Shown: piece by piece, positions 1 through 13,424 of the stretch
How positions within the stretch are numbered: position 1 is the stretch's first letter
Layout of the letters: each line of letters opens with the position of its first letter
NCBI RefSeq assembly: GCF_000425405.1
Contig: NZ_KE384363.1
Coordinates: 62,001 to 126,000 of the forward strand
DNA length: 64,000 bases
Direction of reading: 5' to 3'
Source: Ferrimonas kyonanensis DSM 18153
Lineage (GTDB): Bacteria > Pseudomonadota > Gammaproteobacteria > Enterobacterales > Shewanellaceae
Translations under genes and position numbers: made by a program
Notes under the pieces: generated by a model
The model's input: the letters and a program-made list of their open reading frames with translations, nothing else
Database searches by the model: none
Told to the model about the DNA's origin: nothing

Positions 1-953
1 GTATGGCCGGTCATCCCTTTGGTGCTGCTGACTGGCACCCGATCACCAAATATTCGAAACACCGCATCGCACTCCATGGCATCATTGAGCGGCGTGCCGG
101 TACCATGAAGGTTGATGTAGCTGATGGCCTGCGGAGAGATCCGTGCCATGGCCAGCGCAGCGCGCATCGCCGCTTCGGCGCCGTGTCCCTGTGGGTGGGG
201 GGCCGACACATGATGCGCATCGCTGCTCTCACCCGCGCCGCACAGGCGCACACCACCGGCTTCCCGAGTCATCACAAACAATACCGACGCCTCGCCGATA
301 TTGATGCCATCACGCCCCTGGGTCAGGGGGGCCCCCTGCCCCTTTGAGTAAGACTCCAGGGCATCGAAGCCATTGATGGTCAGCCTGCACAGGCTGTCAC
401 TGCCACCACAGATCACCGCGTCCACCTTGCCTTGCTGCAGCAGTCTGGCGGCCGCCGCCAGCGCTTTGGCCGCCGAGGAGCACGCCGTTGAAATGGTGTA
501 GGCAATGCCTGGCAGGTTAAACCGCTCGGCCACAAACAGGGCACAGGTCCCCATCTCCTGTTTACGATAGTCATAGCTGCGCGCCTCGGGCGCCCGGTCA
601 TCATCGGCCCACAACGTGTTCTCATAGGCCTCGATGCCCGACGTTGAGGTGCCCAGAATCACCGCCAGCCGATCACGGCCATAGCGGTTGACGGCCTCCT
701 GAACCTGGCCATCGATCTGCTCACAGCAATTGGCCAACATTCGGTTGTTGCGACAATCCCAATGAGCCAGCGATTCCGGCAACGGCTGGCTTAGGGCAGC
801 GGCCTGCCCCACGACGGTAGCACGGTTCAGATGGAAGGCGTCGCTGCTGGCAATGGCACCGGCCTCGGCGGCAAGGATTCCCCGCAACAACTGCTCGGGA
901 GTCTTGCCCAAAGGGCTGAATACCCCCGGTTGCCCCAGTTTTACCCCGTTCAT
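1..953 (-). CDS. apeO: beta-ketoacyl-ACP synthase, ApeO type (3' end cut by window edge)
   Basis: Condensing enzyme of the aryl polyene type II polyketide synthase; expected to extend the ACP-bound chain with malonyl units. Reading from ATG at 953, the frame stays open to the window edge (317 full codons). The FabB/FabF catalytic triad is visible: Cys158 in TACSS, His283 in HGTGT, and Lys312/His317 in TKGMTGH at the last codons present. The C-terminal quarter is outside the window. It follows apeN (stop at 950) with a 4-base ATGA overlap, so it is translationally coupled. The KS call is secure; the symbol rests on cluster order, where ApeO is the active half of a heterodimer with the Cys-less ApeC. 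Confidence 0.88.
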   Translation of the reverse strand, partial: MNGVKLGQPGVFSPLGKTPEQLLRGILAAEAGAIASSDAFHLNRATVVGQAAALSQPLPESLAHWDCRNNRMLANCCEQIDGQVQEAVNRYGRDRLAVILGTSTSGIEAYENTLWADDDRAPEARSYDYRKQEMGTCALFVAERFNLPGIAYTISTACSSAAKALAAAARLLQQGKVDAVICGGSDSLCRLTINGFDALESYSKGQGAPLTQGRDGINIGEASVLFVMTREAGGVRLCGAGESSDAHHVSAPHPQGHGAEAAMRAALAMARISPQAISYINLHGTGTPLNDAMECDAVFRIFGDRVPVSSTKGMTGH

Positions 954-1516
954 AATGACTCCTGGATCAGGGTGCTAAGGGTCATGCTAACCCCGTACAG
1001 ATGGTGTTCAAACCGGCGCTGATCCGCCGGCCCGGTGATGGTCACCAGCGGCACGCCTTCGCTGCTGAGTTGGCGGCAATTCAGACCGTCGCACTGCGAC
1101 GTTAATTGAGCCGGTCCATTCAGGCGCGATGCCAACTCGGCCAGTGGCCGCTCCGACAGTTGCACCATCGCCAGCAACCAGGCCGGATCTAACCCTCCAG
1201 GCAACCCGTGAACCTCGGACTCAAGCTGGTTGTCACTCCACTGAATCACCAGACTGATCTGCCCCAGCCCACCGGTGGCGGCCAGCACTCGCCGGCCAGG
1301 CAGACGCTCATCCACGCCCTGCAACGCCAATGCCGGCAGCGTTGGATCGTCAAACGCCAACTGCACCCGCTGCACAACCCGCGTCGGGGCAATGTCGGTT
1401 GCCGCCGGCAACAGGCAGTAAGACACCGACGGACTCAAGCGGGCACACTCGCCGCCCGGTAATCGCATCGCACACCCGGATAACGCCAACAGCAACACCA
1501 GACTCAACCACCGCAT
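950..1516 (-). CDS. apeN: DUF3261 outer-membrane-type lipoprotein of the APE cluster
   Basis: Small secreted lipoprotein, about 188 residues. A hydrophobic signal peptide ends in the lipobox LSGC, with the acylated Cys near residue 15. The rest looks soluble, with paired cysteines in the middle. DUF3261 proteins accompany aryl polyene clusters, and their exact role (probably envelope transport or attachment of the pigment) is unknown. The ATG at 1516 overlaps the stop of the flavin enzyme as TGATG and gives a typical MRW signal start; an ATG nine bases upstream (1525) is possible. Function beyond 'APE-associated lipoprotein' is inference. Confidence 0.75.
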   Translation of the reverse strand: MRWLSLVLLLALSGCAMRLPGGECARLSPSVSYCLLPAATDIAPTRVVQRVQLAFDDPTLPALALQGVDERLPGRRVLAATGGLGQISLVIQWSDNQLESEVHGLPGGLDPAWLLAMVQLSERPLAELASRLNGPAQLTSQCDGLNCRQLSSEGVPLVTITGPADQRRFEHHLYGVSMTLSTLIQESL

Positions 1517-2745
1517 CACTGGCATACCTCTACCAGGGCCGCCAACCGCCGGGCACTGTCCTTCACAAAGGGGTTATCTCGGTCCCAGGCGTAACCAGCC
1601 AGGATTGAGCACACCATCTGCCGAATCTTAGGGTTGGCGTTTTCATGGAACACCACGCTCTGAAAGCGGCCGTCGTACCAGGCTTTGACGTAGGTTTTAA
1701 AGGTGTCCACCCCCTCCTGAAGCGGGCGGCTGTACTCCTGCTGCCAGTCCACCGCTTGCCCCTGAAGTTGCCGATGCAAAACGTCGGCAGCCAGCACCGC
1801 CGATTTCATGGCAATGGTGACGCCGGAGGAAAACACCGGATCGAGAAACTCGCCGGCGTTGCCCAGCAGGGCAAAGCGAGGCCCCGCCAGACGACTGACG
1901 TTGGCTGAATAGCCTTGCAACTGATTGACCGGCTGATCGAAACGGGCATCAGCCAACACCGCCGCCAGGCTGGGAGTATCGGCAACCCAGCGCTTCAGCG
2001 TCTCGGCGCAGTCCTGATCCTCCTGCCCGTCAAAATACTCTGCCGATGCCACCACTCCTAACGACGCCCTGCCATCGGAAAAGGGGATCAGCCAAAACCA
2101 CACATCTTCATAGTCCGGATGGACGGTGATCAGAATTTTGTTGCGATCGAAACCGCCCTGGGCGCGATCTTCGATATGGGTAAACAGCGCCTTGCGGTTG
2201 GGAAAATCCGACGGCGACTCCAGTGATAACAATCTGGGCAACACTCGGGCAAACCCGGACGCATCCAGCACAAACTGACAATCGATTCGGTAATGACCAC
2301 CGTCGTCGGTCTCCACCTCCAGCACGGCTCCGTGCTCCTGCATCTGCACCGATGTCAGTGAGTGGCCGTAACGAATCTCCACGCCCTGAGCGGCGGCCCC
2401 GTCCGCCAGCAGTTGATCAAACCTGCCCCGTTGCACCTGATAGGTGGTGCCAGGGCCCGGAGAGAATTTATCGGTAAAATCAAACTCCGCATAACGTTGA
2501 CCACGACAAAAAGCGGCACCATTTTTAAACTGAAATCCCGCCTGCTCCACCGCCTCGGCAAGCCCAGCCTGCTGCAGGTACTCCATGCACTGGGGCAACA
2601 GGCTTTCGCCGATGGAAAAACGCGGAAAATGCGCCCGTTCCAGCACCAACACCTGATGGCCCTTGCGCTGCAACAAGGCACTGGCGACCGCACCGGAGGG
2701 ACCAGCCCCGATAATCACAACGGTGCGGCTTTCTTGTTCTGTCAT
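1516..2745 (-). CDS. FAD-dependent monooxygenase-fold enzyme with flavin-halogenase signatures
   Basis: A 409-residue flavoprotein. It has the Rossmann FAD-binding GxGxxG at residues 13-18 and HFPRFSIGESLLP near 39-51. It also has three features described for flavin-dependent halogenases: a lysine at 74 in the AGFxxKxG context of the catalytic Lys of PltA-type enzymes, WxWxIP at 216-221 (WFWLIP), and FxxPxxSxG at 300-308 (FLDPVFSSG). Such enzymes make HOCl or HOBr from FADH2 and O2 and halogenate an aromatic substrate. Xanthomonadins, related aryl polyenes, are brominated. The gene lies between apeM (ATGA overlap at 2742-2745) and apeN (TGATG overlap). A non-halogenating COG0644 oxidoreductase remains possible, and a flavin reductase partner is not visible nearby. 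Confidence 0.8.
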   Translation of the reverse strand: MTEQESRTVVIIGAGPSGAVASALLQRKGHQVLVLERAHFPRFSIGESLLPQCMEYLQQAGLAEAVEQAGFQFKNGAAFCRGQRYAEFDFTDKFSPGPGTTYQVQRGRFDQLLADGAAAQGVEIRYGHSLTSVQMQEHGAVLEVETDDGGHYRIDCQFVLDASGFARVLPRLLSLESPSDFPNRKALFTHIEDRAQGGFDRNKILITVHPDYEDVWFWLIPFSDGRASLGVVASAEYFDGQEDQDCAETLKRWVADTPSLAAVLADARFDQPVNQLQGYSANVSRLAGPRFALLGNAGEFLDPVFSSGVTIAMKSAVLAADVLHRQLQGQAVDWQQEYSRPLQEGVDTFKTYVKAWYDGRFQSVVFHENANPKIRQMVCSILAGYAWDRDNPFVKDSARRLAALVEVCQ

Positions 2746-5081
2746 TTTGATTCCTTTCTAATTTGTCGTTCGACAACCGGTGCCAACACCGCTGCCGTTA
2801 ATAACCCCATACTCAGGCTCTGGCCAAAGGCAGCCAGAGGCGGGGTGCTCGACAACCCCAGCATGCCAAAGGCAGCCACCGTCGACAGCACACTGAGCAA
2901 GATAGCCAGGCTGCAATGCCCCCACTCCGATTTCGGGGTCGAAGCCAGGAACAGAGTCTGATCCAATGCAATGCCCAGCATCAATAACAATCCCAGCATA
3001 TGAAACAGAGTCATGGGGATGCCGGCCAGCCCCCAAACGGCCGCCACCAGCAGCATGGCCGCCACCGGTGGTAACACCACCAACAGCGCCAGTTTCCATG
3101 GATGCACACGAGAGATCAGCAGCAGCGCCATAACCAGAATCAGCAGGGTGATCGCCATCAAAGCCAGTCGATAATGGGCCATGACCCGCCCGAGATCTTC
3201 AACGCGATCCAGGTAACGAACGCCCTCCCTCTGCGCCAGCGCCTTAAGCGGTGCCACATTCTGCACTCCGGTCAGCAGCACCACGCTGCGCCACCCCGAC
3301 GGGCCTTCGCCCAGCCACTGCAGTTTCAGCGGCGAGTTTCCAGGCTGGGCCAGCCATTGCGCCGGCGTCAGCACCGGCGCCTCGGCCAATTGCTGACTCA
3401 GGCCCGGCATGAACCCGGCCGCGAAACCGAGTTGCTGCAGCCCCTGGGCCAGTGACGGTGAAGCGTAAGCCCGGGCCAGCACCTGACGGCTGGCCTGTTG
3501 CCGGGCCAGCGATGGCAGGGTATCGGTCAGCAACGATGCGCCCTGCAACTGCTGCGAGGCGATCAAGGCCTGTAGCGGCGCTCGCAACGACTCTTCCAGT
3601 TGCAACAAGTGCTGCTCACTGTCGGCGCTCAGCAACAACATTCGGTGCTGCTCCGGCAGTGGCAACAACTGATTCAGGTGACGCTGCTGTTGCAGCAGCG
3701 ATTCCGAGCTCTGCTGGAAATGACGCACGTCATCGTCGAAGCTCAAGCGCCCTAAGCCGAACAGGGTCACCAGTGTGAGCAACAACCACAGCCAGGGCGA
3801 ACGGGTTAAGCGAGCGCCCAGCTGTGACCCGCGAGCGGCGACTCTGACACAGTAAGGATCGGCCGAAGGCTTGATAAACCCCATGACTGGCATCCACTGC
3901 ACGGTCAAGAACGCCCACAGCAATCCGGCAATGGAAAACACCGCCATCTGCTTAAGCCCGGGAAACGGCATAAAAATCATCACCAGATACGCCAGGCAGG
4001 AACTCAGCAGCGCCAGCAGCATCGGCAACCTCAGGGCACGAGCCGACCGGCGGGCACTGTCACCAGGCTGGCAACTGAGGTGCAAGGTATAGTCCACCGC
4101 CACGCCCACCAAGGTGGTACCAAACACCAAGGTAATGGCATGAAGTTGCCCCAGCACCAGCAAACAGGCCGAAGCCCCCACCAGCAGGGCACTGCCAATG
4201 ACCAGCAACAGCCAACCCAGCGGTGCCAGGCGCCGGAATACCACCAGGGTAAACAGCACCACCAACAGCAGCGAAGCGGAGCCAAGCCAGGTCATCTCCC
4301 GCTTGGCCTGAGTCGTGGCTTCGGCGGCGTGAAACACCACCCCCGCCCGAGTCAGAGTCACCTCGGGCCACTGTTCGGCCTCACCCTCGATGGCCTGCAG
4401 TAACCGCTGCTGTGCCCCGGGTTCAAACGCGGACTGCTGCAGTTGCCATTGAGTCAGCAGCAGTTGTCGCTGCTTCCAACTGCGGCTCAACCCCCGCGCC
4501 TCGGGCTGCCAACCCTCAACCCCCTGTGCCAGGGATTGCAGGTAGTCGGGGAACAGCAGCAAAGGGTCGCCCGCAATCAAGCCGGCGGCCGGGGTCACTC
4601 CCGGCGTCGACAAGGCGCGATACAGGCGGCTAAGCCACTGTTGTGGTTCCTGTTGTTGCAGCTCTCGCTGCTGGTCCGCCGTCAACAATCCAAACCGGTA
4701 GGGATAAAGAAACTGCCCCAACGATGCCATTCCGGACTCGGACGCCGATTGCAACACCGCACCACTGTGGCTCAGTCGTTGGCCGAGGCTGTCCGCCATG
4801 GCCGCAGCCATGTCACTGTCCGGGGCATCCAGCAACAGAAAGAACGTCTGTCCGCCGACACTGGCAAACCGATTCACCACTTCCGAGGCCGCCTCATCCT
4901 GATCCGAGGGCAGCAACGTGGTGATGTCAGTACTCATGGCCGGCCAGGAAAACCCCAACCGAACGGCGGTAACCAGCAGCAACAACAGCAACACTGCCAA
5001 CCAGCCAGCTATCCCTTGCGCCGGTGTCCAGCGGCGAACCGAATCAGAATTGGGCAAGCTCGCTCTCCAGCAGGGGCCCAT
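2742..5081 (-). CDS. apeM: MMPL/RND-family exporter of the APE cluster
   Basis: Inner-membrane exporter of 779 residues with the duplicated RND/MMPL layout: one N-terminal TM helix, a large periplasmic loop, a five-helix bundle, then the same again. Each half has an intramembrane acidic residue, Asp330 (GVAVDYTLHL) and Asp707 (GIALDQTLF), as expected for proton coupling. In APE and related pigment clusters this family pairs with a LolA-like carrier (here apeL, overlapping by 38 bases) and is thought to move the lipid-linked polyene to the outer membrane. The ATG at 5081 is used; a TTG eight codons later (5057) is also plausible. Substrate is inferred from context. Confidence 0.88.
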   Translation of the reverse strand: MGPCWRASLPNSDSVRRWTPAQGIAGWLAVLLLLLLVTAVRLGFSWPAMSTDITTLLPSDQDEAASEVVNRFASVGGQTFFLLLDAPDSDMAAAMADSLGQRLSHSGAVLQSASESGMASLGQFLYPYRFGLLTADQQRELQQQEPQQWLSRLYRALSTPGVTPAAGLIAGDPLLLFPDYLQSLAQGVEGWQPEARGLSRSWKQRQLLLTQWQLQQSAFEPGAQQRLLQAIEGEAEQWPEVTLTRAGVVFHAAEATTQAKREMTWLGSASLLLVVLFTLVVFRRLAPLGWLLLVIGSALLVGASACLLVLGQLHAITLVFGTTLVGVAVDYTLHLSCQPGDSARRSARALRLPMLLALLSSCLAYLVMIFMPFPGLKQMAVFSIAGLLWAFLTVQWMPVMGFIKPSADPYCVRVAARGSQLGARLTRSPWLWLLLTLVTLFGLGRLSFDDDVRHFQQSSESLLQQQRHLNQLLPLPEQHRMLLLSADSEQHLLQLEESLRAPLQALIASQQLQGASLLTDTLPSLARQQASRQVLARAYASPSLAQGLQQLGFAAGFMPGLSQQLAEAPVLTPAQWLAQPGNSPLKLQWLGEGPSGWRSVVLLTGVQNVAPLKALAQREGVRYLDRVEDLGRVMAHYRLALMAITLLILVMALLLISRVHPWKLALLVVLPPVAAMLLVAAVWGLAGIPMTLFHMLGLLLMLGIALDQTLFLASTPKSEWGHCSLAILLSVLSTVAAFGMLGLSSTPPLAAFGQSLSMGLLTAAVLAPVVERQIRKESK

Positions 5082-5613
5082 CCTGGCGATCGCCGAACCG
5101 GATCACCGTTGGCTGGCCAGCAGAATCCGTCAGGGTCAAGGTGCCGATGGCCTGATGTTCGCCGGTCAGTTCAATCTGCCGGAACAAGGTGGATAACAGG
5201 CTGTCCGTCGGGGTCAGGTGCAGTTGCCAGGCGTCCAGATCGCCGCTGGCGTGCATCTCAAAATGGCGCGCCAGGGCATCGATATCGCCCCGCATCAGGG
5301 CGGTCATCACCGGCAGCATTGACGCCATTCCCGGCTGCTGCAGGCGCTCACCATCCAACACCAGCTCGCCCTGACTGATTACCATGGTCTGAGGCCAGGG
5401 CGTGTGCTGTTTCCACACCACGCCGTGATCCGGCGCGATCAGGTACTCGCCTTCACTAAGCATCGGCGCACTCAAAAACGGCAGGGTTTTACTCTGGCTG
5501 AAACTGCCCCGCACCGGCTCAGGTTGCCCCAGCGCCTGCGCCAGGATCGTCAGGTCCAGGGCCTGACAGGAAAACGCCAGCGCGGTGAGCAGCAGGATTA
5601 GGCATCGAGCCAT
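5044..5613 (-). CDS. apeL: LolA-like outer-membrane lipoprotein carrier paralogue of the APE cluster
   Basis: Periplasmic carrier, 189 residues, with a Sec signal (MARCLILLLTALAFSCQA) and a LolA-type opening in which a GSFSQSKTL segment corresponds to the FxQ(x)K motif of LolA. It is distinct from the housekeeping LolA at 28482-29081. A pigment-dedicated copy next to an MMPL exporter suggests ferrying of the acylated aryl polyene across the periplasm. The frame is open further upstream to 5766, but the signal peptide and the 16-base overlap with the thioesterase support the ATG at 5613. Confidence 0.82.
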   Translation of the reverse strand: MARCLILLLTALAFSCQALDLTILAQALGQPEPVRGSFSQSKTLPFLSAPMLSEGEYLIAPDHGVVWKQHTPWPQTMVISQGELVLDGERLQQPGMASMLPVMTALMRGDIDALARHFEMHASGDLDAWQLHLTPTDSLLSTLFRQIELTGEHQAIGTLTLTDSAGQPTVIRFGDRQDGPLLESELAQF

Positions 5614-6020
5614 GGCAACAACCTCTGTTTCAATACCGGCGGCGACGCCAGGCACATCTCGCCAGTGGCGCCGCTGACTGCGACCTGAACCGTCTCGCCT
5701 TTGACCAGACGGCGGCCGCTGGCGGCATCGCATACCCGATAACGAATCCGCAGCCGCTGTTCCCACTCGATAAGCTCGGCGTAAACGTGCAGCTGTTGCT
5801 CAAATTCGGTCGGCTGTGGGTAACGAATCTTAACGTCGATGATCGGCCAACGGTAGCCGGACGCTTCCATCTGTCGATAGTTGTAATCCAGCTTGTCCAG
5901 CAACTCACACCGTGCCAACTCAAAGTAGCGCAGATAGTTGCCATGCCAGGTAATGCCCATGGGATCGCAATCGTGAAACGGCACCTTTACCTCGACTCTG
6001 GCAGAGACGATTACGGCCAT
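5598..6020 (-). CDS. apeK: hot-dog acyl-CoA/ACP thioesterase, 4HBT family
   Basis: Thioesterase of 140 residues with the 4-hydroxybenzoyl-CoA thioesterase motif DPMGxxWHGNY, putative catalytic Asp19. It probably releases or proofreads acyl-ACP intermediates of the polyene line. Two ATGs are in frame. A GGAGGT ribosome binding site lies seven bases before the ATG at 6020, so that start is chosen over 6035. The gene overlaps the lyase stop by 10 bases and apeL by 16. Confidence 0.83.
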   Translation of the reverse strand: MAVIVSARVEVKVPFHDCDPMGITWHGNYLRYFELARCELLDKLDYNYRQMEASGYRWPIIDVKIRYPQPTEFEQQLHVYAELIEWEQRLRIRYRVCDAASGRRLVKGETVQVAVSGATGEMCLASPPVLKQRLLPWLDA

Positions 6021-7573
6021 TGTGGTACCTCCCAACGACGTCGCTGAATGTCCGCCATTGTCTGGCGCAACGATTGCTCCAGCGGCCGGTCTTCGATCAC
6101 CAGGTCGAACTCGGACGCCACCTGAGTGGTCAATTCGGCGATGCCGGTCGTCAGGGGAAGGCCGCCCTCCTGGCGTTGTCTCAAGGTCAGAGCCTGATAG
6201 GACGCCAGTAACAACGCCGCCGCCACCTGCTCGGTCAGGGTCAGCACCCGCAATGCATCGCGGGCAGAGATGGTTCCCATGCTGACCTTGTCCTGGTTAT
6301 GACACTCGGTGGAGCGGCTGAAGACCGACGCGGGCATGGTCTGTTTCAGCGCTTCGGCGGTCCAGGCCGAGGCCCCAATCTGAACCGCCTTGAATCCGTG
6401 GTTGATCGCCGCACGCTCTCCGGTCGACGCCGACAGGTTTCTCGGCAGACCGTTGTTAAACTTGGTGTCGACCAGGTGCGCAAGCTGCCTGTCCATCAAG
6501 TCAGCCAGGTTGGCCACCGCATTTTTGAGGCTGTCCATGGCGAAGGCGATGTGCCCGCCATAGAAGTGGCCGCCATGAAGGATACGGCCGGCGTCGCCAT
6601 CGATAATGGGGTTGTCGTTGGCGCTGTTGAGTTCGGTCTCGATGGTCTGACGGAAAAACGGCAGTGCATCGGCCAACACGCCGATAACATGAGGGGCACA
6701 GCGCAGCGAATAACGGTCCTGCAAGCGCGGCGGGTTGGGATTACCGTCATTGCCCCCGAGATCCTGATAGATCCAATCGGCAACCTGAGCCTGACCGGGA
6801 TGCGGTTTGGCTTCAAACAGCAGCGGGTCGAAATGGTAAGGGTTGCCCTTCAGGGCCAGAGAGCACAGGGCGGTCAACCGGGCGCAAAGACGGGCCAGGT
6901 AGTCGGCGCGGGAATAGGCTTCGCAGGCCACCGCCGTCATCACCGCGGTGCCATTCATCAATGCCAGCCCCTCTTTGGGTCGGAGTACCAGAGGTTGCCA
7001 TCCCAGTTCGGCGTAGACATCCTGAGTCTCTCGAACCTGGCCCTGGTAATAGACCTCTCGTTCGCCAACCAGCGCCGCGGCGATGTAGGACAATGGCGTC
7101 AGATCGCCACTGGCGCCGACCGACCCCTCTTCGGGAATGCGCGGAATCACGCCCTGATTGAGCATCTCCACCATCCGTTCCAGCAGCGCAATGCTGACGC
7201 CGGAACGACCGATGCACAAGGAAGCCAGACGCGCAGCCAGAATCGCTCGGCCCTGAGTCTCATCGAAACAGCGCCCCATGCCACAACCATGGAAGCGGGT
7301 CAGGTGCAGCGGCAACTCCTGAACCAGTTCGTCTGGGATGGTAACCGTGCAGGAGTCGCCATAGCCTGTGGTGACCCCGTAGATCTCACCATCTTGCTGC
7401 AACAGGGTGTCAAGCAGATCGGCACTGCGCTGCAACCGTTGCCGCACCTCGGGACTGTCGCTGAGACTGACCCGGGCTCCTGCAGCGATGGCGTTAACCT
7501 GATTGATGGTCAACGGGCCCGCACCAAATTCAATCGGGGCGGACTGGGACAGTTGGCTTAACTGCGATTCCAT
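6011..7573 (-). CDS. aromatic amino acid ammonia lyase (HAL/PAL/TAL family)
   Basis: Cytoplasmic MIO-cofactor lyase of 520 residues. The self-cyclising Ala154-Ser155-Gly156 sits in GSVGASGDLTPLSYIAAA; the catalytic Tyr66 loop (IYGVTTGYG) and QDRYSLRC are intact. It should remove ammonia from an aromatic amino acid to give an aryl acrylate such as cinnamate, coumarate or urocanate. By alignment with Rhodobacter TAL (His89-Leu90), plant PAL (Phe-Leu) and HAL (Ser-His), the selectivity pair here is Phe94-His95, matching none of them. Its place inside the ape operon, upstream of the acyl-ACP ligase step, suggests it makes the aryl starter; a hutH role is unlikely because no hut genes are present. 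Confidence 0.9.
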   Translation of the reverse strand: MESQLSQLSQSAPIEFGAGPLTINQVNAIAAGARVSLSDSPEVRQRLQRSADLLDTLLQQDGEIYGVTTGYGDSCTVTIPDELVQELPLHLTRFHGCGMGRCFDETQGRAILAARLASLCIGRSGVSIALLERMVEMLNQGVIPRIPEEGSVGASGDLTPLSYIAAALVGEREVYYQGQVRETQDVYAELGWQPLVLRPKEGLALMNGTAVMTAVACEAYSRADYLARLCARLTALCSLALKGNPYHFDPLLFEAKPHPGQAQVADWIYQDLGGNDGNPNPPRLQDRYSLRCAPHVIGVLADALPFFRQTIETELNSANDNPIIDGDAGRILHGGHFYGGHIAFAMDSLKNAVANLADLMDRQLAHLVDTKFNNGLPRNLSASTGERAAINHGFKAVQIGASAWTAEALKQTMPASVFSRSTECHNQDKVSMGTISARDALRVLTLTEQVAAALLLASYQALTLRQRQEGGLPLTTGIAELTTQVASEFDLVIEDRPLEQSLRQTMADIQRRRWEVPQWP

Positions 7574-7576
7574 CTG

Positions 7577-9256
7577 TTATTCCTTATCTACTAACTGGCC
7601 ATCATCACGCAGCCAAAAATCATAAAAGTTGAACCAGTGCAACGGGTGTCGTATCACCTGTTGCTCCAGCTTACGGGCATAATGGTCGATGCATTCGCCA
7701 ATACGCTGCTGGCGGGTTTTGCGCGGCCCGCTGAGGGGAGCCGCCAGTTTTTCAAAGTGCAGCTCCGGGGTCGGATCGCCGGGTAAGCCCAGCATTAGAT
7801 ACAGCGGGCAATCGAGCACCGACGCCAACACGTAAGGACCGATGGAAAAAGCCGCCGCTTGACCGAGAAAATCGCTGTAATGCACCCGACCGAAATTGGT
7901 GGCCGAAGTGCGGTCACCGGCAATGATCACCAGTTCGCCAGCCGCCACCCGCTCCTGCAGGACAATGGCGGTTTCCGGTCCCAGCTCATCCACCTGCAGC
8001 AACTCGACCTGAGATCGAGGGTTCAATTCAGCCAATATGGCATTGAACTTCGCCGCATGGCGGGTCAGGGCCAGTACATTGATGCGCTTGCGAAACTCGG
8101 ACTCAGCGGCGGCCCTGAAAATCTCTATATTGCCAAAATGCGCGGTCAGGATCATCGCTCCCTGCCCCCGCTCAAACAGATCGACCATCAACTGCCGGTT
8201 GGGGAACTGGGCCGGGCCGACATTCAGTTTGCCACTCCAGGCATCCAGTTTGGTCAAGGCAGCCTGCCCAAATGTCAGGAAGTGGCGGTAACTGGCCCAG
8301 TTGCCCGAGCCGATGCTCGGCAAGCCCTGGGCCTCACGGGCCGCGTTGGCCCGGGTCAGGTAGGCTTTGGATGCCTGTCTGGCCTCTGTGCCGGTCACAA
8401 AGAAATAGCCGATGATGAACGGCAGCACCGCCCGGCAAAGCCAGCGGCCACCATGGCGGTAGAGCCACAGCAGGGTTTTCAGTCCCCACATGGCACCGCG
8501 CTCTGACACCGAGCTCCAGTGCTTACGACGGCGCTTTCTGAACAGCAGTGACGGCAGACGCCACAACATGCCAAAGACCAGACGGGTGTGCATGCAACTG
8601 ATTAGCCAGTTGTCTTCCAGGGCTCGAAAATGAGACCGTCCCTGTTCGGGGTAGATCACCGACGTTGGCTGCTGGATGATCGGCGTCCCCTGCCAGAACA
8701 ATCGCACCAGTATCTCCGGGTCGAAGTCCATGCGGTCACCGACCCGCTGCTGTTCGATGACGTTAGCCACCGCGGCAACCGGGTAGACCCGAAAACCGCA
8801 CATGGTGTCTTTCAGTTCCAGACTCAGGGTTTCCACCCATACCCAGACATGGGTCAGGTAGCGCGCCAGGTAGCGGTGCCGGGGCACCGACTCGTCGTAG
8901 CGGGGAATGCCGGTAACCACGGCGTCGGGCTGCCGTTTCGACAATGACAACAACTGCGGCAGATCATCGAGATCATGCTGACCATCGGCATCGACTTGAA
9001 CCGCATGGCTGAATCCCTGCTGACGCGCCCACAGGATGCCGGTCTTCACCGCCGCCCCTTTACCGCCGTTGACCGGACGCCGAACCAGAGTCACCCAGTC
9101 GTGACGCGCGGCCAGCGCCTCTACCGCCGCCAGCTCTTCGGCACTGGAGCCATCGTCCACCACCACACAGGGCAACGCCATGGCCGCAAGCCGTTCAAGC
9201 ACCGGCGCCAACTGCTGGCCATGGTTGTAGTGAGGAATCAGCAAGCAGGCGGTCAT
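7577..9256 (-). CDS. apeJ: bifunctional glycosyltransferase 2 / LpxL-type acyltransferase
   Basis: Fusion of 559 residues. Residues about 1-230 are a GT2 domain with VVDDGSS and the DxD-type motif VDADGQHD. After a basic linker and a hydrophobic segment (about 275-295), residues 300-550 form a lauroyl/myristoyl acyltransferase domain with an HX4E motif (AHFGNIE). In APE clusters this fusion is thought to add a sugar and acyl group so the polyene can be anchored in the membrane. The ATG at 9256 overlaps the apeI stop as ATGA; the lyase ATG follows three bases after the apeJ stop. Confidence 0.88.
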   Translation of the reverse strand: MTACLLIPHYNHGQQLAPVLERLAAMALPCVVVDDGSSAEELAAVEALAARHDWVTLVRRPVNGGKGAAVKTGILWARQQGFSHAVQVDADGQHDLDDLPQLLSLSKRQPDAVVTGIPRYDESVPRHRYLARYLTHVWVWVETLSLELKDTMCGFRVYPVAAVANVIEQQRVGDRMDFDPEILVRLFWQGTPIIQQPTSVIYPEQGRSHFRALEDNWLISCMHTRLVFGMLWRLPSLLFRKRRRKHWSSVSERGAMWGLKTLLWLYRHGGRWLCRAVLPFIIGYFFVTGTEARQASKAYLTRANAAREAQGLPSIGSGNWASYRHFLTFGQAALTKLDAWSGKLNVGPAQFPNRQLMVDLFERGQGAMILTAHFGNIEIFRAAAESEFRKRINVLALTRHAAKFNAILAELNPRSQVELLQVDELGPETAIVLQERVAAGELVIIAGDRTSATNFGRVHYSDFLGQAAAFSIGPYVLASVLDCPLYLMLGLPGDPTPELHFEKLAAPLSGPRKTRQQRIGECIDHYARKLEQQVIRHPLHWFNFYDFWLRDDGQLVDKE

Positions 9257-9609
9257 ACCGACTCCGGCTCAAACACGATCCGACCACTGGAATAACGCTT
9301 TTCCGTGCAGAAGAAAGCAAACCGCACCCGACCCTCGTCGAGCCGTTCCAACTCCAGGGTCAGCTGTTGCCCGGGTCGCTGAAGCTGCTGAAACTTCACC
9401 ACCTCGAGTCGGGCACAGCGCTCAGGCATGCCGTAGCAGGCCTGAGCCTGAGTGATGGCCCACTGCAACTGAACCACCCCTGGCAATACCGGCGCACCAT
9501 TAAAGTGGCCGTTAAAATAATCCAGGTCTTCAGGAATCATCAGCGTGAATCGCGTCACACCGTCGACCTGGCGCTGTTGCAGCCACACAGGGTCAATCTT
9601 GGTCATCAT
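9253..9609 (-). CDS. apeI: 3-hydroxyacyl-ACP dehydratase-like hot-dog protein
   Basis: Protein of 118 residues with a FabZ-like core: GHFNGAPVLPGV around His35 corresponds to the GHFPGxPxxPGV motif. It is expected to dehydrate 3-hydroxyacyl-ACP to build conjugated double bonds. In the characterised Xenorhabdus system ApeI works as a heterodimer with a second hot-dog protein, ApeP, which would lie left of this window. There are two adjacent ATGs (9609 and 9606). It overlaps apeH by 17 bases. Confidence 0.83.
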   Translation of the reverse strand: MMTKIDPVWLQQRQVDGVTRFTLMIPEDLDYFNGHFNGAPVLPGVVQLQWAITQAQACYGMPERCARLEVVKFQQLQRPGQQLTLELERLDEGRVRFAFFCTEKRYSSGRIVFEPESV

Positions 9610-10903
9610 GGAATAACTCCAGCAAAGCCGCCCTCGTCAGCTTACCTTGATGGTTAAATGGCAGGCGCTCAGGATAGCGCCAGCGTCTGGGCAAAGTCAC
9701 CCGTTCAAAATGCCCAAGCAGGTGATCTTTCCAGCAAAGTGCCAACTGCCTGCCACCGAGATTGGCACGGGCCACCAGGCCGGCCTCGGTTAACTGCACC
9801 ACAGCGCCAATTTGCGCACGCGCCGAGGGCAGCAACACCAAGGCCACCTGGGCGACCCATGGATGGCGCTCAAGCTCCTTTTCCATGCTCACCAGGCAGA
9901 CCCGCTTTTCGGCGATTTTGACGGTGCGATCGGCACGCCCAAGCAGCTGCATCCCGTCGGCACTGAGGCTAACCCGGTCGTCGGTGCGATACCAGCGATC
10001 ACCGTCGAGGTAGGGGGAACGAATCCACAACCGTTGCTGCTCACTCTTGACCTGGACACAGTCAAACGGCTGCCACAGCGGGTCCGGATGCTGTTCGCTG
10101 GCCCGGCGATGGGCAATGCCGCCGGTTTCGGTGCTGCCATAGATCTCCACCACCCCTTGTTGCCAGTGCCGGCAGCGCTCCAGCGCCGCATCGCGACGCA
10201 GGGGGCCGCCAGAACTGAACGCCATCACCGGCGCCACCCCCTCCTGCAACTGCCAATGTTGCAGCAGTGACGGGCTGGCGACCAGGGCGGCAGGGGCGTG
10301 GTGGGCCAGCGCCGCAGTCAGCGTTTCCGGGTACAGCAGGGTCTCAATAACAAAGGGACGCCCGGCGCAAAATGGCCACAACAGCCGAAACAGCAATCCG
10401 TAGATGTGCTGATGGGACACACTGGCCACCATCGTCGATCGCGCCAAGGCCTCACCGAACTGTTGCTCCAGCTCATTGATTTCGGCTTCCAGCTGCGACA
10501 GGGACTTGTCCACCGCTTTGGCTTCACCGCTGCTGCCGGAAGTAAACAAGCGCAAGCGCCCGCCAGGGCGCCATACGACCTCCTCGAAGTCGCAGTCTGC
10601 GGCCTGCCAGTGGTCGTCCATCTGCAACTGGTGGTGGTCCTCCAAGCGCTGCAAGGTCGATGCCTGGCCGTTGGCAGGCAGTATCACCTCAACGCCCAGC
10701 CCCAACAGCGCCAATAGGCGGATCAGGAAAGTCTGGGCATTGTCGCTGAACAGCAGCACCGACGCCGGAGGCTCGGTGCCGAGACTGGCCTGCACCCTGG
10801 CCACCTGCCGGCGCACATCGCTCAGCAGGATCTGGCCGTCCTCGGCGCCGCGACAGACCACGGAGTCATCGGCAAACAGTCGCGCCGTCAGCGACAGGGT
10901 CAT
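9593..10903 (-). CDS. apeH: AMP-dependent acyl-ACP ligase
   Basis: ANL-superfamily adenylating enzyme of 436 residues, compact for the family. Visible motifs are the phosphate loop TSGSSGEAKAV, the A5-type YGSTETGGIAHR, the A7-type YRTDDRVSL, and a C-terminal lysine in NHQGKLTR. It should activate the aryl starter acid with ATP and load it on ApeE or ApeF. The frame is open upstream to 11215, but the ATG at 10903 has an AGGAGG site and overlaps the apeG stop as ATGA. Confidence 0.87.
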   Translation of the reverse strand: MTLSLTARLFADDSVVCRGAEDGQILLSDVRRQVARVQASLGTEPPASVLLFSDNAQTFLIRLLALLGLGVEVILPANGQASTLQRLEDHHQLQMDDHWQAADCDFEEVVWRPGGRLRLFTSGSSGEAKAVDKSLSQLEAEINELEQQFGEALARSTMVASVSHQHIYGLLFRLLWPFCAGRPFVIETLLYPETLTAALAHHAPAALVASPSLLQHWQLQEGVAPVMAFSSGGPLRRDAALERCRHWQQGVVEIYGSTETGGIAHRRASEQHPDPLWQPFDCVQVKSEQQRLWIRSPYLDGDRWYRTDDRVSLSADGMQLLGRADRTVKIAEKRVCLVSMEKELERHPWVAQVALVLLPSARAQIGAVVQLTEAGLVARANLGGRQLALCWKDHLLGHFERVTLPRRWRYPERLPFNHQGKLTRAALLELFHDDQD

Positions 10904-11439
10904 ACCGCCTCCTGGTACTTTGGCCGAATCAGCAACTCTGCAACCACCATCAGCCCCATCAGCCCGTAAGAGATCAGGCCGTTGTAAAGTGTCCAACACT
11001 CCATATCCCCGTAGATCACCGTGGCCGTTGCAATGCTGCCATTGACCACAAAAAACACGCACCAGGCCAAGGTGACCCGGCGCAGATAGGGCTGCGCCTG
11101 CGCCGGCAGATTCGGGTGCCGAAGGCGAGCAAACTGCTCCACCATCGACGGTGGGCGCCGCAACGACCAGCCAAAGGCAAGCAACATCAGGCCGTTGACC
11201 AGCACCGGATACCACAGCAGCACCCTTTCATCCCGGGTAAGCAGGTACAAACCAACCAGGCCTGCGCCCACCATGGGGATCGCCCGGCTTGAGCGGGGAA
11301 CCATGGCGGCACGGATCAACAGCAGTGCCAATAGTAGAAAAGCAAAAGTCGGCCCCAATTGTTGCTGGACCGACACATACACTAATCCCGGGTACGCCAC
11401 CAACAGCAGCGTCACCGTGATGGCAAACAGGGGCTTCAT
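10900..11439 (-). CDS. apeG: APE-cluster integral membrane protein (COG4648 type)
   Basis: Polytopic inner-membrane protein of 179 residues with about five or six hydrophobic helices and short polar loops; no catalytic motif is visible. Its size, composition and position between the second ACP and the ligase match the COG4648 membrane protein of aryl polyene clusters, whose function is unknown. The start overlaps the upstream ACP stop as TGATG and the stop overlaps apeH as ATGA, so it is translated as part of the unit. Confidence 0.75.
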   Translation of the reverse strand: MKPLFAITVTLLLVAYPGLVYVSVQQQLGPTFAFLLLALLLIRAAMVPRSSRAIPMVGAGLVGLYLLTRDERVLLWYPVLVNGLMLLAFGWSLRRPPSMVEQFARLRHPNLPAQAQPYLRRVTLAWCVFFVVNGSIATATVIYGDMECWTLYNGLISYGLMGLMVVAELLIRPKYQEAV

Positions 11440-11687
11440 CAGGCGGGAATCAATTTTTCCAGTGCATCCAGAACGTCATTGACACTGCGAACGGCCTTAA
11501 ACTCCTCAGGCTGAATCTTTACCCCTGTGGTTTGCTGCAGCTTGATCACCAGATCAACCGCATCGATGCTGTCCAGATCCAGGTCTTCATACAGGCTGGC
11601 CTCTGCGGTGATATCAGCGGCTTCAATTTCAAACTCTTCGACCAGAATGGCCGACAGTTCGGCAAACAGCTCTTCACGACGGCTCAT
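11439..11687 (-). CDS. apeF: acyl carrier protein (second of two)
   Basis: Acidic 82-residue ACP with the phosphopantetheine serine at position 40 in DLDSIDAVDL. The prosthetic arm is probably added by the phosphopantetheinyl transferase at 13506-14114. It overlaps the preceding ACP gene by four bases. Having two different ACPs in tandem is the normal APE arrangement; which carries starter and which carries the growing chain cannot be told from sequence. The symbol rests on order. Confidence 0.88.
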   Translation of the reverse strand: MSRREELFAELSAILVEEFEIEAADITAEASLYEDLDLDSIDAVDLVIKLQQTTGVKIQPEEFKAVRSVNDVLDALEKLIPA

Positions 11688-11956
11688 GACTGCTCCCCTT
11701 GTTCAGTTTGGCTGCGAATAAAACCGGCCAGGGCCTCAACACTGGCAAAATGCGAACGGGTGTCTTCGGCATTGGGATCCAGTTTCACCCCATAGCGTTT
11801 CTTGATGGCCACCCCCAGTTCCAGGGCGTCGATGGAATCCAGACCCAGCCCTTCAATAAACAACGGGGCTTCGGTTTCAATGTCATCTACCGTAATCTCT
11901 TCCAGCTCCAGCGCGTCAATGATCAGCTGCTTTAACTCGGTAATTAATGGGTTCAT
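11684..11956 (-). CDS. apeE: acyl carrier protein (first of two)
   Basis: ACP of 90 residues with the modification site Ser41 in GLDSIDALEL. The surface is acidic, with a somewhat longer helix III region than the next ACP. In the Xenorhabdus work ApeE is the elongation carrier. Its ATG overlaps the acyltransferase stop (ATGA at 11953-11956). Confidence 0.88.
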   Translation of the reverse strand: MNPLITELKQLIIDALELEEITVDDIETEAPLFIEGLGLDSIDALELGVAIKKRYGVKLDPNAEDTRSHFASVEALAGFIRSQTEQGEQS

Positions 11957-12720
11957 TCTTTTTCTAACTCCGTATTAAATCTTTGTTCCATCTCGCGGGT
12001 CAGTCGCCTGACTTGCAACGACTCAGGCGCCCCCTCATCCGCGGGGCAGTCGATCGGGTCACCGACGTTCATGCTGATCACGAACCTCGATGGCGAGACC
12101 CTATACCAAGGCGTGCCCTTGGTCAGGGTCGTCGGGGTACAACGCAGGGTGATGGGCAATACCGTTGCCCGGCTCCCTAATACAATTCGGGCAGCGCCTC
12201 GCTGCATCTTGATGGGGGCGCCTGGGGTGGTTCTGGTGCCTTCGGGAAACACAATAATATTGTCGCCCTGCTGCAACTTCTGCCGGCTCAATCTTACCAC
12301 GTCATCCGGACAATCATTGGCGATATAACCCGCGGCTTTGATCACCCATCGCATAAACGGGTTTCGCAATAACGATTGCTTGACGATGCAGTTGGTATGG
12401 GGAATCGCCGAAATCAACACCACCACATCCAGCAAGCAGGGATGGTTGGCGATGATCACCATTCCTTTGGCTTGCTGAAGCCGTTGCGGCTGGTCTATGA
12501 CCACCCGAGTCACCCACAGCAACTCCATAAACCGCACGAAGAAACGAAACAACCAATGGACACAGCGCTGAGCACGCCGTTGCTTCTGCGCCGGGGCACC
12601 TGGCAGCAGCGACAGCAGCGGAAACAGACCGATGCCGGCGATAAGCCCACCCAAGCCAAACACGGCAAAACTCAAGCCGGTGGCGAGTATTCGATAGCCG
12701 TGATAGAGGGCCCGTATCAC
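11953..12720 (-). CDS. apeD: PlsC-type lysophospholipid acyltransferase
   Basis: Membrane-associated 1-acyl-glycerol-3-phosphate acyltransferase family member, about 255 residues. It has an N-terminal hydrophobic segment, the catalytic HX4D motif (His93, Asp98 in NHPCLLD), and FPEGTRT around residue 155. It probably transfers the finished polyene, or another acyl group, to a lipid acceptor. No ATG fits. GTG at 12720 overlaps the apeC stop as GTGA and has an upstream GGAG, so it is preferred to a TTG at 12735. Confidence 0.82.
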   Translation of the reverse strand: MIRALYHGYRILATGLSFAVFGLGGLIAGIGLFPLLSLLPGAPAQKQRRAQRCVHWLFRFFVRFMELLWVTRVVIDQPQRLQQAKGMVIIANHPCLLDVVVLISAIPHTNCIVKQSLLRNPFMRWVIKAAGYIANDCPDDVVRLSRQKLQQGDNIIVFPEGTRTTPGAPIKMQRGAARIVLGSRATVLPITLRCTPTTLTKGTPWYRVSPSRFVISMNVGDPIDCPADEGAPESLQVRRLTREMEQRFNTELEKE

Positions 12721-13424
12721 CGCAGCAGGCTCCAACGGTAACGCAGCCGCTCCTGTTGCATAACCGCACCACCATCGGCACCACTGAGCAGTCTCAGCAC
12801 TTGCCAGGGCACCGAGGTCAGTCGCGGGTGATCGGCCGGGTCGTCGGTGACCTCGGCCTGCAACCGCATCGAGGCAGACAGTGACAAGCGCAGCGACAGG
12901 GCCATGGCGGGTTGTTGCGGTTCGGACGCCGTCAGGAATCGGTCCGGTACCGGTTCATCCACATACACCACCAACACGTCGCGGTCGGCACTTAACTGAC
13001 TCTGGCCCTCAATCAGGGCCATCAGCAGAGTATCGCTGCCTGCGGCAATGGAGGTGGAGGGCTGGGTATTGGAAAAATGGATGCCATAACTGCCAGAGGC
13101 AAAGTTATGCACCGACTGACTAAAGCGAGTTGGCGATACCGCCTCACCGGCCAGCAGACCATCGAGCATGCCAACGGTCTGGCCGACTTCACCATGCTGG
13201 GACGCAAACACCGTCGGCAATGACTCCTCCCCGTTCAGCGGCTCTGCCACATACAGCGCCATCTTTGCCAGTCGGGTCAGGCGACGACGCTTCATCGCCG
13301 GTACAAACGGCAATGCCGGAGTTGATTCATCATCAGCACCGGGATAAATGGGCAGTTCGTTGGCAGAATTCCGGGTTGTCGATGTCCACCCCTGCCAACC
13401 CAGAACAGGGAAAGTATGTTTCAT
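12717..13424 (-). CDS. apeC: catalytically degenerate ketosynthase-like partner (chain-length-factor type)
   Basis: Protein of 235 residues resembling the N-terminal half of a ketosynthase (beta-ketoacyl synthase-like N domain). At the nucleophile region it reads SVHNFASGSYG instead of TACSS, so it lacks the active Cys, and it has no HGTGT. In characterised APE systems ApeC pairs with ApeO as a KS-CLF heterodimer; that role is inferred here from order and degeneracy. It is the first gene of the leftward operon, with its ATG at 13424 next to an AT-rich divergent promoter region. Confidence 0.82.
   Translation of the reverse strand: MKHTFPVLGWQGWTSTTRNSANELPIYPGADDESTPALPFVPAMKRRRLTRLAKMALYVAEPLNGEESLPTVFASQHGEVGQTVGMLDGLLAGEAVSPTRFSQSVHNFASGSYGIHFSNTQPSTSIAAGSDTLLMALIEGQSQLSADRDVLVVYVDEPVPDRFLTASEPQQPAMALSLRLSLSASMRLQAEVTDDPADHPRLTSVPWQVLRLLSGADGGAVMQQERLRYRWSLLR

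Follow-up and report, generated by a model that had tools for sequence, protein, structure and literature searches.

Few bacterial natural products are as common as the aryl polyenes (PMC8253772). The pigments of Xanthomonas carry between none and two bromines, and the clusters of two Xanthomonas species include a halogenase gene; Lysobacter has a cluster without a halogenase and a pigment without a bromine pattern (PMC3691225). In Azoarcus BH72 the gene arcA, labelled a halogenase, adjoins the chorismatase gene arcB, and the arcuflavin polyene is called nonbrominated (PMC3949708). Some flexirubins are chlorinated, and the pigment of Chitinophaga pinensis is methylated, with a formula without halogen (PMC3992019). 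The chain of the butuanimides, which occur in bromine and chlorine forms, is ascribed to an arylpolyene-type polyketide synthase (PKS) of the symbiont Teredinibacter (PMC13151354). Here, we analysed a window of 64,000 nucleotides from Ferrimonas kyonanensis DSM 18153 (NCBI RefSeq assembly GCF_000425405.1, contig NZ_KE384363.1, positions 62,001 to 126,000), in which a gene for a 409-residue flavoprotein lies inside an aryl polyene (APE) cluster. A first-pass annotation of this DNA had proposed a flavin-dependent halogenase in such a cluster, and motifs, conservation, fold and synteny support that proposal. Judged from its motifs, predicted fold, conservation and cluster membership, the protein is very probably a single-component flavin-dependent halogenase of the PltA/Mpy16/CndH type, and its substrate is probably the aryl head group of the aryl polyene of this strain.

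The sequence hallmarks of halogenases are present in the translated gene and are kept across its relatives. Regular expressions recovered G13AGPSG18, G70FQFKNG76 (with Lys74), W216FWLIP221 and F300LDPVFSSG308, so the three halogenase motifs and the GxGxxG site stand at exactly the residues given in the first-pass annotation. The protein matches Pfam Trp_halogenase with 103.3 bits against a cut-off of 21. In a sequence alignment Lys74 falls on the conserved lysine of CndH, CmlS, Mpy16, ChlB4, RadH, FasV (8zop) and 3nix; the comparison with the catalytic lysine is favourable at the level of alignment, and the overall fold matches. The closest solved protein is 3nix, a Cytophaga hutchinsonii flavoprotein (expectation value, E, 5.6e-108; 42% identity over nearly the full length), followed by CndH (3e1t), CmlS, Mpy16 (5buk), FasV, Bmp2, ChlB4, PltA and RadH. 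All three motifs are found in each of the seven solved chains compared (3nix and six halogenases, PltA and Bmp2 not among them). A motif survey covered 140 loci, 113 of them with a relative in an open frame of at least 300 residues; the other 27 had been fetched for DUF3261 (17) or a chorismatase (10), and no relative was found there. At least two genomes are present twice in this survey (L009 with L032, L011 with L110). The lysine, WxWxIP and FxxPxxSxG were all kept in 101 of 101 relatives with at least 45% identity, and also in 12 of 12 more distant ones. The negative controls gave a mixed picture. Two related flavoproteins, L003 of the same genome (G000:C2:111361-112386, LodB-like with 197 bits, below the cut-off of 400) and L016 of another Ferrimonas, have neither the halogenase lysine nor WxWxIP. 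None of five weaker relatives (L018-L022) shows all three motifs; in these partial alignments the aligned position is occupied by a lysine in L019 and L022, and WxWxIP is seen in L021.

Relatives of the gene are widespread in Pseudomonadota. The homologue of Ferrimonas senticii DSM 18821 is 67% identical to the 409-residue protein. The named-genome matches, the best 80 of at least 588 confirmed stretches, belong mostly to Pseudomonas/Stutzerimonas and otherwise to Shewanella, Cupriavidus, Vibrio, methanotrophs and other Pseudomonadota. Among the plasmid-collection matches listed (40 of 122 records), relatives at 53-59% identity come from Acinetobacter, Pseudoalteromonas, Cupriavidus, Burkholderia and Caballeronia, with a broken copy from Neisseria, and one from the Bacteroidota, Aureispira, at 42%. 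The hosts of this clade include soil, freshwater and clinical bacteria. It had been expected that such genes would be annotated only as FAD (flavin adenine dinucleotide) oxidoreductases. The first 22 listed plasmid-collection matches (52.7-59.0% identity) provide ten gene names: nine read 'NAD(P)/FAD-dependent oxidoreductase', in agreement with this expectation, but the tenth is 'tryptophan 7-halogenase'. No study of this halogenase clade was found in those parts of the aryl polyene, xanthomonadin, flexirubin and 3nix literature that our searches covered. In two listed records of Neisseria gonorrhoeae the gene is broken into three pieces (57.5-57.7% identity; L026, 12001-13194), and tblastn found no other ape marker in the one N. 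gonorrhoeae locus examined, L026.

The predicted structure points in the same direction. An AlphaFold2 model built from 36 sequences reached a mean pLDDT (predicted local distance difference test) of 91.8 and a pTM (predicted template modelling score) of 0.92. In VIA-align the model superimposed on 3nix with Z 54.8 (root-mean-square deviation 1.6, 400 aligned), and ranks 2-9 after 3nix were taken by halogenases with Z between 38.8 and 44.1: PltA 44.1, ChlB4 44.1, Mpy16 43.9, Bmp2 42.9 (triple mutant) and 42.4 (wild type), FasV 42.7, RadH 39.4 and CndH 38.8. The first hydroxylase followed at rank 10, with Z 36.0 for the p-nitrophenol enzyme PnpA and values near 35 for p-hydroxybenzoate hydroxylases. 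Foldseek returned 3nix, RadH, PltA, Mpy16, ChlB4, FasV, CmlS, Bmp2 and CndH in this order, then CtcP and PltM, all before the first hydroxylase. Thus, the modelled fold of the 409-residue protein is nearer to halogenases than to hydroxylases.

The gene lies between the ApeM and ApeN positions, where the first-pass annotation had put it, with the ApeM-position transporter upstream and the DUF3261 protein downstream. The order in the window is acyltransferase, two carrier proteins, ligase, ApeI, ApeJ, ammonia lyase, thioesterase, LolA, ApeM, halogenase and ApeN, and the open reading frames (ORFs) of ApeM and the halogenase overlap by 4 bp (Table 1). Beyond the window, on the same contig, ApeN is followed by a ketosynthase, a dehydratase (assigned by clustering), a ketoreductase and a second ketosynthase. 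Clusters of Acinetobacter baumannii (L025) and Pseudoalteromonas (L028) have the same local gene order; in Burkholderia (L030) the halogenase gene is placed further downstream. Because the ORF clustering lost genes to long false ORFs on GC-rich loci, gene counts were taken from tblastn. The top NCBIfam matches of the ammonia lyase are tyrosine and histidine lyases, all below cut-off, and this enzyme is the likely source of a 4-coumarate or cinnamate starter.

Table 1. Positions of the halogenase-type gene, its motifs and the neighbouring cluster genes (window coordinates unless another locus is named).
Feature	Position	Strand	Basis or remark
Flavin-dependent halogenase-type protein, 409 aa	1516..2745	(-)	ATG start
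GAGPSG, FAD-binding GxGxxG, residues 13-18	2692..2709	(-)	coordinates derived from ORF start
Lys74 codon	2524..2526	(-)	conserved-lysine alignment; coordinates derived from ORF start
WFWLIP, WxWxIP motif, residues 216-221	2083..2100	(-)	coordinates derived from ORF start
FLDPVFSSG, FxxPxxSxG motif, residues 300-308	1822..1848	(-)	coordinates derived from ORF start
DUF3261 protein, ApeN position (LolB-like)	950..1525	(-)	PF11659, E 1.3e-10; position as in E. coli CFT073 ape
RND/MMPL-type transporter, ApeM position	2742..5081	(-)	30% to E. coli ApeM (tblastn); without Pfam match, HpnN match weak
LolA-like protein, ApeL position	5044..5766	(-)	clusters with LolA-annotated genes of L025/L028; true start probably within ORF
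Thioesterase, ApeK position	5598..6035	(-)	PF13279, E 2.3e-14
Aromatic amino acid ammonia lyase	6011..7573	(-)	PF00221, E 9.9e-163
Glycosyltransferase/acyltransferase, ApeJ position	7577..9256	(-)	PF00535; 45% to E. coli gene
ApeI-like dehydratase	9253..9609	(-)	PF22818, E 4.9e-11
Acyl-ACP/AMP ligase, ApeH position	9593..11215	(-)	31% to E. coli ape ligase (tblastn); true start probably within ORF
Acyl carrier protein, ApeE/F position	11439..11687	(-)	sequence (DLDSIDAVDL) and gene order
Acyl carrier protein, ApeE/F position	11684..11956	(-)	sequence (GLDSIDALEL) and gene order
Lysophospholipid acyltransferase, ApeD position	11953..12735	(-)	clusters with acyltransferases of L025/L028
Probable chain-length factor, ApeC position	12717..13424	(-)	by position alone
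B12-binding radical SAM (S-adenosylmethionine) protein	L139:9964-11313 = G000:C3:57964-59313	(-)	about 2.7 kb beyond left window end, beside the cluster's last ketosynthase

The place of the gene next to ApeM is kept in many genomes. In the 80 named loci, ApeM ends at most 1.5 kb upstream of the halogenase gene in 71, a core APE gene (ApeM, ketoreductase or ApeR) lies within the stretch in 77, and an ammonia lyase in 71; the three loci without a core APE gene are L050 (a 4-kb contig), L081 and L099. Linkage was also surveyed in 40 genomes, comprising that of the window and 39 relatives, 14 of them Ferrimonas. The halogenase (at least 67% identity) and a clear ApeM occur together in five of the 14 Ferrimonas, and neither occurs in the other nine. 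Both are present in ten of the surveyed genomes, the window's own included, where they are 0-59 bp apart in eight, 225 bp apart in G039 and 1.9 Mb apart in G036. Six genomes (G017, G021, G024, G027, G031 and G033) have a clear ApeM without an intact halogenase. Remnants were seen in G024, as fragments with a stop, and in G037, which is without ApeM, as two short pieces. In a class-wide sample DUF3261 was found in 26 of 370 genomes (own included), although it is an imperfect marker, as G030 has the halogenase and ApeM with no DUF3261 match. When E. coli genomes were searched at the DNA level with the DUF3261 and ApeI genes, the sensitivity of the method gave no match. Within the cluster the halogenase gene is optional, yet its place is well fixed.

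We asked whether the ApeB methyltransferase and the halogenase strictly replace each other, which would have supported a ring-tailoring role. ApeB-like genes are found in the halogenase-less loci L138, L121 and L120 (a 66-residue piece), but the idea of mutual exclusion was dropped because such genes also adjoin a halogenase in L081 and L099, both of them loci of Vibrio. There, at 8911-9963, an ApeB-like methyltransferase (52%) lies directly upstream of the halogenase; an ammonia lyase is present, and no core APE gene was found within the stretch. One further methyltransferase occurs in the halogenase-less locus L127. A methyltransferase motif scan missed ApeB itself and was not used.

Halogenase-type genes near polyene clusters fall into two lineages. 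The PF21168 chorismatase, a family of which we take XanB2 to be a member, was found in 66 of 370 genomes, and the window genome (G000) gave no match to it. Among 20 chorismatase loci examined, nine have a halogenase-type gene, one (L159) has a third, more distant one, and in ten none was found in the stretch. The nine chorismatase-linked halogenases are 45-54% identical to a Variovorax relative (L031) and 30-34% identical to the 409-residue protein (tblastn). L031 was included by similarity, no ape gene having been found nearby; in L150 about 5 kb lie between the gene and the chorismatase. In the tree, which is without PltA, Bmp2 and any Xanthomonas sequence, these nine genes and L031 form one side of a branch supported at 100/98, and the 25 window-type rows are separated from this group at 100/98. 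The latter have their own fork in the whole tree (84/92) and group with 3nix and a sequence from the Aureispira plasmid L027 at 80/90, below the starred level. Deep placement is unsure because RadH, CmlS, FasV, L159, L003 and L016 sit on long branches. By analogy with Azoarcus arcA/arcB, that is, from nearness to a XanB2-like chorismatase, the chorismatase-linked clade would be the xanthomonadin halogenase clade. The 409-residue protein stands outside it, and neither the xanthomonadin analogy nor any characterised halogenase touches the window clade directly. On this basis, aryl polyene clusters may have gained ring halogenation at least twice, once through the lineage linked to chorismatase (3-hydroxybenzoate) and once through the present one, often beside an ammonia lyase and with Bacteroidota relatives; we offer this as a tentative proposal, with the balance slightly against it.

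Two further loci are worth recording. The halogenase-type gene of L159 (16014-17186; 26% identity) has all three motifs and lies near APE-type genes and a chorismatase. The Aureispira plasmid carries two annotated FAD oxidoreductases, at 3882-5405 and 10821-12074, of which the second groups with 3nix; a gene fusing MMPL, acyltransferase and methyltransferase parts and one for an AMP-binding protein lie nearby.

Several results weigh against the interpretation of the gene as a head-group halogenase. None of the 25 NCBIfam families listed, of 63, exceeded its cut-off for the protein, the top match being the CmlS equivalog NF033113 with 175.1 bits against a cut-off of 900. The halogenase CmlS fits the model slightly worse (Z 35.6) than does the hydroxylase PnpA, and the tree groups all six of its solved halogenases with the chorismatase-linked clade (98/92), not with the window clade. 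We know of no demonstrated activity for any member of this clade, 3nix included. The gene is present in only 8 of the 25 other DUF3261 loci of the class, several of which are cut by contig ends, and from this it follows that an aryl polyene does not need the halogenase. Nor is the ammonia lyase tied to it, being found in 5 of 8 loci with the gene and in 5 of 17 without. Finally, Azoarcus BH72 is described as having a halogenase-labelled gene and yet a nonbrominated pigment, so a gene of this type is no guarantee of a brominated product (PMC3949708). One rival reading is a flavin monooxygenase acting without halide, with the aryl ring or an early precursor as the target of hydroxylation; such an enzyme would belong to the same fold superfamily; the p-nitrophenol and p-hydroxybenzoate hydroxylases do appear in the structural ranking, after the halogenases, and the QhpG monooxygenase family (NF049967) gave 136.5 bits, below its cut-off of 240. 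However, Lys74 and WxWxIP are invariant across the clade, while the related flavoproteins L003 and L016 are without both. In the literature both are taken as marks of halogenases, and WxWxIP as a probable obstacle to monooxygenation. We consider hydroxylation quite unlikely. Least likely of all seems another redox role on a halogenase-like scaffold, such as that of a reductase or desaturase for the polyene or a lipid carrier. It would be in line with the geranylgeranyl reductase family match in NCBIfam (129 bits, below the cut-off of 158.8) and with the deposition of 3nix as flavoprotein/dehydrogenase, but this name comes from a structural-genomics entry behind which we know of no assay, and motifs and fold place the protein with the halogenases.

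A halogenase might also act on another molecule handled by the cluster, for example a partner that is a lipid or a resorcinol, or else tyrosine or coumarate that is still free and not yet loaded. The gene sits between the transport genes ApeM and ApeN and not next to the PKS genes, and RadH, which acts on a free substrate, fits the model well; the best-fitting chlorinases, however, act on carrier-bound aromatics, and we regard this alternative as very unlikely. The nature of the halogen is a separate matter. The first-pass annotation had suggested a halogenated, perhaps brominated, pigment, from the example of the xanthomonadins and from the bromide of the sea. A brominase is a sub-case of the head-group halogenase, so that the likelihoods of the two overlap, and we judge it possible but unsupported, and unlikely. 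Ferrimonas is a marine genus and seawater holds bromide, many flavin halogenases take bromide if it is present, and one of the close folds is that of the brominase Bmp2 (Z 42.4-42.9). Butuanimides, with a chain ascribed to an arylpolyene-type PKS, occur with bromine as well as with chlorine (PMC13151354). On the other hand, the chlorinases PltA and Mpy16 fit the model equally well as Bmp2 or slightly better. The argument from xanthomonadin bromination was set aside because the window protein, standing outside the clade linked to XanB2-like chorismatases (xanthomonadin/arcuflavin-like), has no shared ancestry with it. The clade is also common in non-marine bacteria (Pseudomonas, Acinetobacter, Cupriavidus, methanotrophs). 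Many bacteria from soil, freshwater and clinical sources have close relatives of the gene in this position, so chlorine would be at least as likely as bromine on this pigment. As to the head itself, a flexirubin-like 4-hydroxyphenyl group is the better guess, because the cluster has an ammonia lyase and the genome has no PF21168 chorismatase. Judged by gene content, the flexirubins, some of them chlorinated (PMC3992019), are the known product class closest to it.

If the protein is the head-group halogenase, we infer the halogenation, the carrier-bound state of the substrate, the ring position, the tyrosine origin and the order of steps in the following way. A separate reductase would supply reduced FAD, which would react with oxygen and halide to give hypohalous acid, and the latter would pass through the protein to Lys74. 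Halogenation would then take place on the ring of a head group derived from tyrosine, beside the phenol, and probably with that group bound to a carrier protein of the ApeE/F type. PltA, Mpy16, Bmp2 and ChlB4 use carrier-bound substrates. ApeL, ApeM and ApeN would then move the finished chain to the outer membrane.

The Ferrimonas cluster has one more neighbour to note. The B12-binding radical SAM gene matches TIGR04072 (rSAM_ladder_B12) with 410.7 bits against a cut-off of 360. Of the 40 genomes searched, just those five Ferrimonas that have ApeM and the halogenase gave a score over the cut-off, with the gene 4.1-4.2 kb from the halogenase, and the remaining 35 gave none; the copy in G009 has an in-frame TAG. 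An anammox B12/radical SAM enzyme, Kuste2803, was proposed as a candidate for ladderane cyclisation (PMC2649909). A 6.5-kb contig of another class member (L117) has DUF3261 and ApeM, no halogenase, and a 30% identical radical SAM homologue. Were halogenation acquired twice, as proposed above, many strains of Pseudomonas, Shewanella, Acinetobacter and Ferrimonas would make halogenated aryl polyenes that have been overlooked, and the Ferrimonas pigment, modified in addition by a ladderane-family B12 radical SAM enzyme, would be a polyene lipid of a new kind; to our knowledge, none such has been described. Head-group tailoring is one main way in which aryl polyenes differ. With a conserved halogenase lineage in these clusters, a halogen would be missing from structures that are based on the E. 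coli model, and the old structural-genomics entry 3nix would become a testable enzyme.

Compared with described systems, the locus shares its backbone of genes and their order with apeA-R of E. coli CFT073, where ApeM and ApeN adjoin; the E. coli cluster, however, is without halogenase and ammonia lyase and has the methyltransferase ApeB. The flexirubin clusters of Chitinophaga pinensis and Flavobacterium johnsoniae resemble it in that a tyrosine ammonia lyase (shown for C. pinensis FlxA) feeds a 4-hydroxyphenyl polyene, but flexirubins are dialkylresorcinol esters. At the protein level, 3nix agrees in all three motifs, in 42% identity and in fold, and differs in its Bacteroidota origin. CndH, Mpy16 and ChlB4 share the fold, the lysine, WxWxIP and FxxPxxSxG, with 32-33% identity where aligned, but in the tree they lie outside the window clade; PltA shares the fold with the model. 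The substrates of PltA, Mpy16, ChlB4 and CndH are different ones, namely pyrroles and phenols of antibiotics. The chorismatase-linked halogenases of the arcA type, finally, have all three motifs, like the window gene, and several have polyene-cluster genes within reach, but they form a separate clade, and the PF21168 chorismatase of their 3-hydroxybenzoate route is absent from the window genome.

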